Assembly (NCBI RefSeq): GCF_963853665.1
Contig: NZ_OY970459.1
Location: 5,146,001 to 5,210,000 of the forward strand
DNA length: 64,000 bases
Origin: Mycobacterium decipiens
GTDB taxonomy: Bacteria; Actinomycetota; Actinomycetes; Mycobacteriales; Mycobacteriaceae
Direction of reading: 5' to 3'
Shown: one piece after another, positions 31,702-31,905 of the stretch
Layout: the number at the start of each line of letters is the position of its first letter
How positions within the stretch are numbered: the first letter of the stretch is position 1
Made by a program: the position numbers and the translations under genes
Notes under the pieces: model-generated
Seen by the model: only the letters and a program-made list of their open reading frames with translations
Database searches by the model: none
Told to the model about the DNA's origin: nothing

Positions 31702-31905
31702 TAGGCGCCGCTTCTCCTCATCGCTTCGCTCTGCATCGTCGCCGGCGGTCATTAGGCGCCGCTTCTCCTCATCGCTTCGCTCTGCATCGTCGCCGGCGGT
31801 CATTAGGCGCCGCTTCTCCTCATCGCTTCGCTCTGCATCGTCGCCGGCGGTCATTAGGCGCCGCTTCTCCTCATCGCTTCGCTCTGCATCGTCGCCGGCG
31901 GTCAC
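31702..31905 (-). repeat. Four-copy 51-bp MIRU-type tandem repeat between glf and glfT2
   Basis: Exactly four 51-base units (204 bases) read on the gene strand, each translating in frame as [17 protein letters not shown]; the first begins with GTG. The unit carries GACGATGCAGAGCG and GATGAGGAG, the core of the M. tuberculosis MIRU family as I know it. As in classic MIRUs the element begins inside the stop of the upstream gene (glf TGA in GTGA) and ends at the start of the next. Because 51 is divisible by 3, copy number can change without breaking the frame into glfT2. Confidence 0.88.

Follow-up and report, generated by a model that had tools for sequence, protein, structure and literature searches.

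The window analyzed here, a 64,000-nucleotide stretch of Mycobacterium decipiens DNA, contains an array of four 51-bp repeat units at the boundary between glf and glfT2, which are both read from the minus strand. The array belongs to a single 5,303,299-bp contig (one assembly) and is accompanied by these features:

31902..33110, minus strand: glf, UDP-galactopyranose mutase, in an ORF that is open from GTG 33224
31902..31905, minus strand: GTGA, the 4-nt overlap of the glf stop codon and the start codon of the fused ORF
31913..31921, minus strand: possible Shine-Dalgarno (SD) sequence for the coupled GTG, AAGAGGGTG (modelled at -7.1 kcal/mol, spacing 7)
31702..31905, minus strand: MIRU array of four identical 51-bp units, one 17-aa peptide per unit
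31905-31855, 31854-31804, 31803-31753 and 31752-31702, minus strand: boundaries of the four units
31852..31854, minus strand: internal ATG opening unit 2, with GAGGAG 12 nt upstream
31803-31801 and 31752-31750, minus strand: internal ATGs equivalent to that of unit 2
31699..31701, minus strand: ATG, the first codon behind unit 4, at the start position of most relatives
29758..31905, minus strand: fused ORF of 715 aa, a 68-aa repeat tail plus GlfT2 (ORF reading and Pfam)
29758..31701, minus strand: tail-less body of GlfT2, 647 aa, beginning at ATG 31701 (ORF, Pfam, and starts in relatives)

TRF reported a period of 51 with 4.1 copies and 100% matches at 31694-31904, and a chance origin of four identical 51-mers is ruled out. 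The fused ORF translates from its GTG start as four copies of the 17-aa unit followed by MTAVSLLARIILPRPGEPLD, and the array is open in frame, as no stop codon occurs from GTG 31905 through to the GlfT2 stop. There is no frame break across the array, because 51 bp is a multiple of three and the final codon is CTA; in the usual unit, a stop that overlaps the next start takes this place. Because all four units are identical, substitutions within the array allow no coding test. Pfam placed Glft2_N, Glyco_tranf_2_3, and GlfT2_domain3 from residue 75 of the fused ORF onward; PF17994, PF13641, and PF19320 all exceeded the cut-off, identifying the N-terminal, glycosyltransferase, and third domains of GlfT2. 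The gene upstream of the fused ORF matched UDP-galactopyranose mutase, and its start probably lies near 33110, from MQPMTARYD. The sequence-only reading had described a repeat of MIRU type that reads in frame into GlfT2, and the four 51-bp units, the 715-aa open ORF, and 31 matches in the same genome bear this out.

The window holds two other repeats. A perfect 60-bp tandem repeat of 2.5 copies, non-MIRU by alignment, lies between two long ORFs at 2677-2827, and degenerate 15-bp repeats of the PGLTS type lie at 33648-33770 within a proline-rich ORF, which we take to be erp/pirG.

MIRUs in the M. decipiens genome and at glf-glfT2 junctions of the genus

By its sequence, the window repeat is a MIRU. 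The 31 matches to the array in its own genome (E ≤ 0.001, the array itself included) show that it is a mycobacterial unit scattered over many loci; its size (four units of 51 bp) falls within the ≈40-100 bp of MIRUs, which occur in tandem or singly; and it is located at a stop-start overlap of co-directional genes, the GTGA shared with glf. A small ORF of its own that stops at the start of the next gene is typical of MIRUs and is missing from the window array; we treated this as a trait of a MIRU sub-type rather than a defining one. The available part of one report gives a MIRU size range of 46-101 bp (PMC3914561).

We classified the 21 clusters of this genome that have a readable unit; L008, L099, and L106-L110, where no unit was read, were not counted. 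The stop of the unit ORF overlaps the next start by 4 nt in 14 of the 21 clusters, and the unit is open into the next gene in three: at glfT2 (L001), at L091, where 54-bp units are fused to a PF00144 beta-lactamase-fold protein, and at L007 (last unit only). The other four are L092 and L098, where the next start follows the unit stop 3 and 6 nt on, respectively, L101, which is without the usual frame, and the second L097 cluster, where no start was found behind the single unit read. Our script had labelled L101 a fusion, but the gene at that locus does not share the frame of the unit, and the label was dropped. The gene behind the MIRU at L105 is presumably regX3. These counts agree with the earlier statement that the window array is unlike the usual MIRU, since the norm within the genome is a separate stop with a 4-nt overlap and fusion is the minority arrangement. 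That norm also agrees with the coupling described in the accessible text of PMC12548453, which credits to Supply et al. (1997) the finding that start codons are the insertion sites of MIRUs, whose own ORF is coupled to the following gene at a spacing of -4 nt. Units in the 10 arrays of at least two units in this genome are spaced by 50, 51, 52, 53 (six arrays), or 54 bp. One array, at G000:C1:3817739-3818220 (L002-L004), has nine tandem 52-bp MIRU units; each unit ORF ends in TGA, and a TTG follows one base later.

GlfT2 was found in 393 of 396 genomes of the genus. We parsed 210 loci (the window, 80 named loci, 29 from the genus-wide list, and 100 further stretches), which gave 142 distinct junctions; the loci beyond the 80 named ones came from the top of the match list, which biases the sample toward close relatives. 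A MIRU was called where at least 75 nt separate the Glf and GlfT2 anchors (59 junctions) and the match to the MIRU consensus beat 300 of 300 shuffles. Thirty-nine of the 59 outscored all 300, and L232 was dropped as borderline because 1 of 500 shuffles reached its score. The remaining 38 MIRU junctions among the 142 comprise 27 mini-ORF relays, 8 C-terminal extensions of Glf, and 3 fusions to GlfT2, namely the window (four units), L022 of M. angelicum (one unit), and L240 (one unit). More than one fused unit occurs only in the window. At L029 (M. nebraskense), classed as a Glf extension, the repeat frame is also open into GlfT2. Separately, L090 and L129 carry a reverse-oriented MIRU seemingly fused into the C-terminus of Glf, with scores just above all 500 shuffles, and L090 has four in-frame 60-bp units there.

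Most insert-free relatives have a 4-nt glf/glfT2 overlap, and GlfT2 starts at the equivalent of ATG 31701 in most relatives read. The nearest genome by DNA among those compared (G029, 87% over 802 nt) has an insert-free junction (L121), and the row closest to the window by path on the tree (L120) is a mini-ORF relay. This tree has 141 rows, L239 being left out for its shortness, and shows at least 24 changes in MIRU presence and 3 in fusion; the fusions of L022 and L240 are separate gains. A ribosome path from the glf stop to GlfT2, defined as start/stop overlap or abutment of 4, 1, or 0 nt or an open frame, is retained in all 38 MIRU junctions, and in 32 of them if abutment is left out and only 4 or 1 nt is accepted. 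In simulations, the path survived a single random 1-2-nt indel in the insert in 47% of cases (36% with 4 or 1 nt only) and a 3-nt deletion in 97%. The strict path is present in 43 of the 50 junctions that measure 100 nt or more, with or without a MIRU, versus 41% of shuffled inserts. We read the 38 path-keeping junctions as consistency and not as independent selection, because the rows share ancestry and each MIRU supplies a relay of its own.

Start codons and the N-terminal tail of GlfT2

Each of the ATGs at 31854, 31803, 31752, and 31701 is preceded by GAGGAG 12 nt upstream, which is a long distance. With an assumed anti-SD sequence for all duplex energies, the modelled duplex is -8.6 kcal/mol at these ATGs (spacing 10-11) versus -7.1 kcal/mol at the coupled GTG (spacing 7), and the stronger pairing of the internal ATGs, though farther away, was counted against a start at the GTG. 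At L104, the AAG form of the MIRU end, as in the window, precedes a coupled start (-8.3 kcal/mol), which was likewise counted against a start at the GTG. We nevertheless prefer the GTG, because it is coupled and has an open frame behind it; translation from the coupled GTG to yield a tailed GlfT2 appears most likely from the sequence, and starts at the internal ATGs in the array are possible. Of the earlier proposal that translation could begin at any of five codons, the five possible start codons do exist, of which more than one may be used.

The proposed course of events, to which we give somewhat better than even credence from the arrangement of the sequence, would run as follows. A MIRU would have inserted at the glf/glfT2 stop-start overlap, right behind the glfT2 start codon, a step suggested by the relatives without an insert, and would then have been amplified to four units. 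Ribosomes ending glf would start again on the overlapping GTG, just as where no insert is present, and would read through all four units to give GlfT2 with a 68-residue N-terminal tail, charge-rich (net about -2 per unit) and probably flexible. The enzyme would tolerate this tail, the frame would survive the gain or loss of units, and the internal ATGs may contribute some shorter GlfT2 forms. The parts that we infer are translation from the GTG, a GlfT2 that tolerates its tail, and copy change inside the species.

Ribosomes might instead enter at the ATG of each unit as well, producing a ladder of GlfT2 forms with 0, 17, 34, 51, or 68 extra residues in a mix set by copy number. The four ATGs in identical contexts with GAGGAG upstream would fit such entry, and -8.6 kcal/mol is within the range of eight other MIRU ends compared (-8.1 to -11.1 kcal/mol), as would the fact that the equivalent of ATG 31701 is the start in most relatives; however, the 12-nt distance is unfavorable, given that 3 of the 8 ends reach -11.1 from a nearer GGAG, and the internal sites would be overrun by a ribosome that had begun at the coupled GTG. 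We consider this ladder possible but unlikely. Still less probable in our estimate is that the array is translated as a relay or leader, with the working enzyme made from ATG 31701 and the long form minor. ATG 31701 does occupy the usual start position, and GlfT2 keeps a short N-terminus in the 27 mini-ORF and 8 Glf-extension cases among the 38 MIRU junctions, but in the window, unlike the path in those other 35 cases, the frame runs from the coupled GTG into GlfT2 with no stop on the way. Tandem repeats are prone to mis-assembly and this array is known from one assembly, so the real array could differ in unit length or number; with four perfect units in a single 5.30 Mb contig and in-frame arrays of 17-aa period at other loci in other genomes, we regard such an artefact as very improbable.

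The preferred reading, a tailed GlfT2 made from the GTG, can be set beside GlfT2 proteins of other origin. The window GlfT2 is 93% identical to P0001 (637 aa, 1050 members), presumably the GlfT2 of the M. tuberculosis complex. A single in-frame MIRU unit is present in 2 of the 120 GlfT2 proteins listed (P0002 and P0017), and a four-unit array was found in none of these 120 matches; of the junctions read, the window has the longest GlfT2 fusion. The solved chain 4fix (657 aa) begins ≈20 residues ahead of the start of P0001, and because this structure was solved, an added N-terminal stretch of that length is compatible with folding. AlphaFold without an alignment gave a mean pLDDT of 36 and drew the tail as one long helix (residues 7-71, block pLDDT 41-68); with 43 sequences, the mean was 57 and the tail became short helices (blocks 35-44). 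These models are of too low a confidence to support a statement on structure or a search by fold, and a functional role of the tail is not supported by any evidence here. Seven other GlfT2 proteins (P0032, P0035, P0050, P0060, P0084, P0085, and P0096) have variable low-complexity N-terminal tails of the MTKTTGDDA type, 33-68 aa long. A decayed MIRU as the origin of such long tails (27-68 aa) was rejected for now; against the MIRU, the tails of L228 and L087 scored no better than shuffles, and L232 was borderline.

In-frame arrays at other genes and comparison with known systems

The 68-aa repeat, used as a query, had matches in 103 of 396 genomes, and many of the listed matches contain stops. 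We read 29 matched loci (L271-L299) and 20 further stretches (L300-L319, of which L317 repeats L294); many have 2-8 units in one open frame, with a period of mostly 17 or 18 aa. Pfam was run on 27 chosen ORFs, mainly longer ones (26 from the read loci plus L091), and found a domain in 26, with the array ahead of the domain in 23, behind it in 2 (L280, and the C-terminus of signal peptidase II at L318), and inside the protein in 1 (phosphoketolase, L293); in the array ORF of L271, Pfam found no domain. The domain-bearing ORFs include ScpB (L281, L295, and L300), RmlD (L288), nucleoside diphosphate kinase (Ndk, L307), an ACP-ketosynthase protein (L279), a UvrD-type helicase, an RNA pseudouridine synthase, and UDP-glucose dehydrogenase. 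We take the ACP-ketosynthase protein to be Pks13-like. Arrays in short ORFs, such as L272, L275, and L283, may be non-coding. Orthologous scpB loci of other species have three in-frame copies (L281) versus two (L295 and L300), and at the scpB of L301 a unit is two residues shorter with the frame intact. At L281, L295, L300, L301, and L305, the N-terminal MIRU units of ScpB are placed behind a stop-start overlap. The sequence-only reading had held that repeat expansion at glfT2 keeps frame by design. Design is not supported: frame is kept on copy change because the unit length is a multiple of three, and the arrangement is not unique, with two more fusions in the genome and many in the genus.

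MIRUs are familiar as markers for typing and as elements placed between genes, whose ORF is coupled. A more speculative view, which we hold doubtful, is that they act as mobile coding modules, in which 3n+2 units would relay and 3n units would fuse, creating modular charged tails of which some were put to use. If so, tails of the 3n mode on GlfT2, ScpB, RmlD, Ndk, and others would change length by whole units, and unit length modulo three would give a testable rule for relay or fusion. A read-through class would mean that some changes in MIRU copy number alter housekeeping proteins and that annotated starts near such arrays may need checking. In the open-licence PMC literature, we found no paper on MIRU together with glfT2, and among the matches listed in-frame MIRU fusion was the topic of no title or abstract opening.

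Judged by its sequence, the window array is a MIRU in an unusual read-through arrangement. It resembles the classical MIRU in sequence family, in its stop-start site between co-directional genes, and in tandem units of similar size; in the classical element, as far as the available text of PMC12548453 describes it, the own ORF is kept and coupled, whereas the window units are read through into the gene. The GlfT2 fusions of L022 (M. angelicum), L240, P0002, and P0017 share an N-terminal in-frame MIRU and differ in having one unit instead of four. VNTR3239/ETR-F, whose array length was reported to go with the mRNA level of fpg1 in M. tuberculosis, is likewise a tandem array directly upstream of a gene, but it lies between genes and the portion of that report at hand describes no protein fusion (PMC2734929), in contrast to the fused array of the window. 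The arrays at ScpB, RmlD, Ndk, and the ACP-ketosynthase protein likewise repeat in frame, with units that are mostly 17-18 aa long and an array that in most cases precedes the domain; they differ from the window in their genes and linkers, and most of these linkers are without an ATG.
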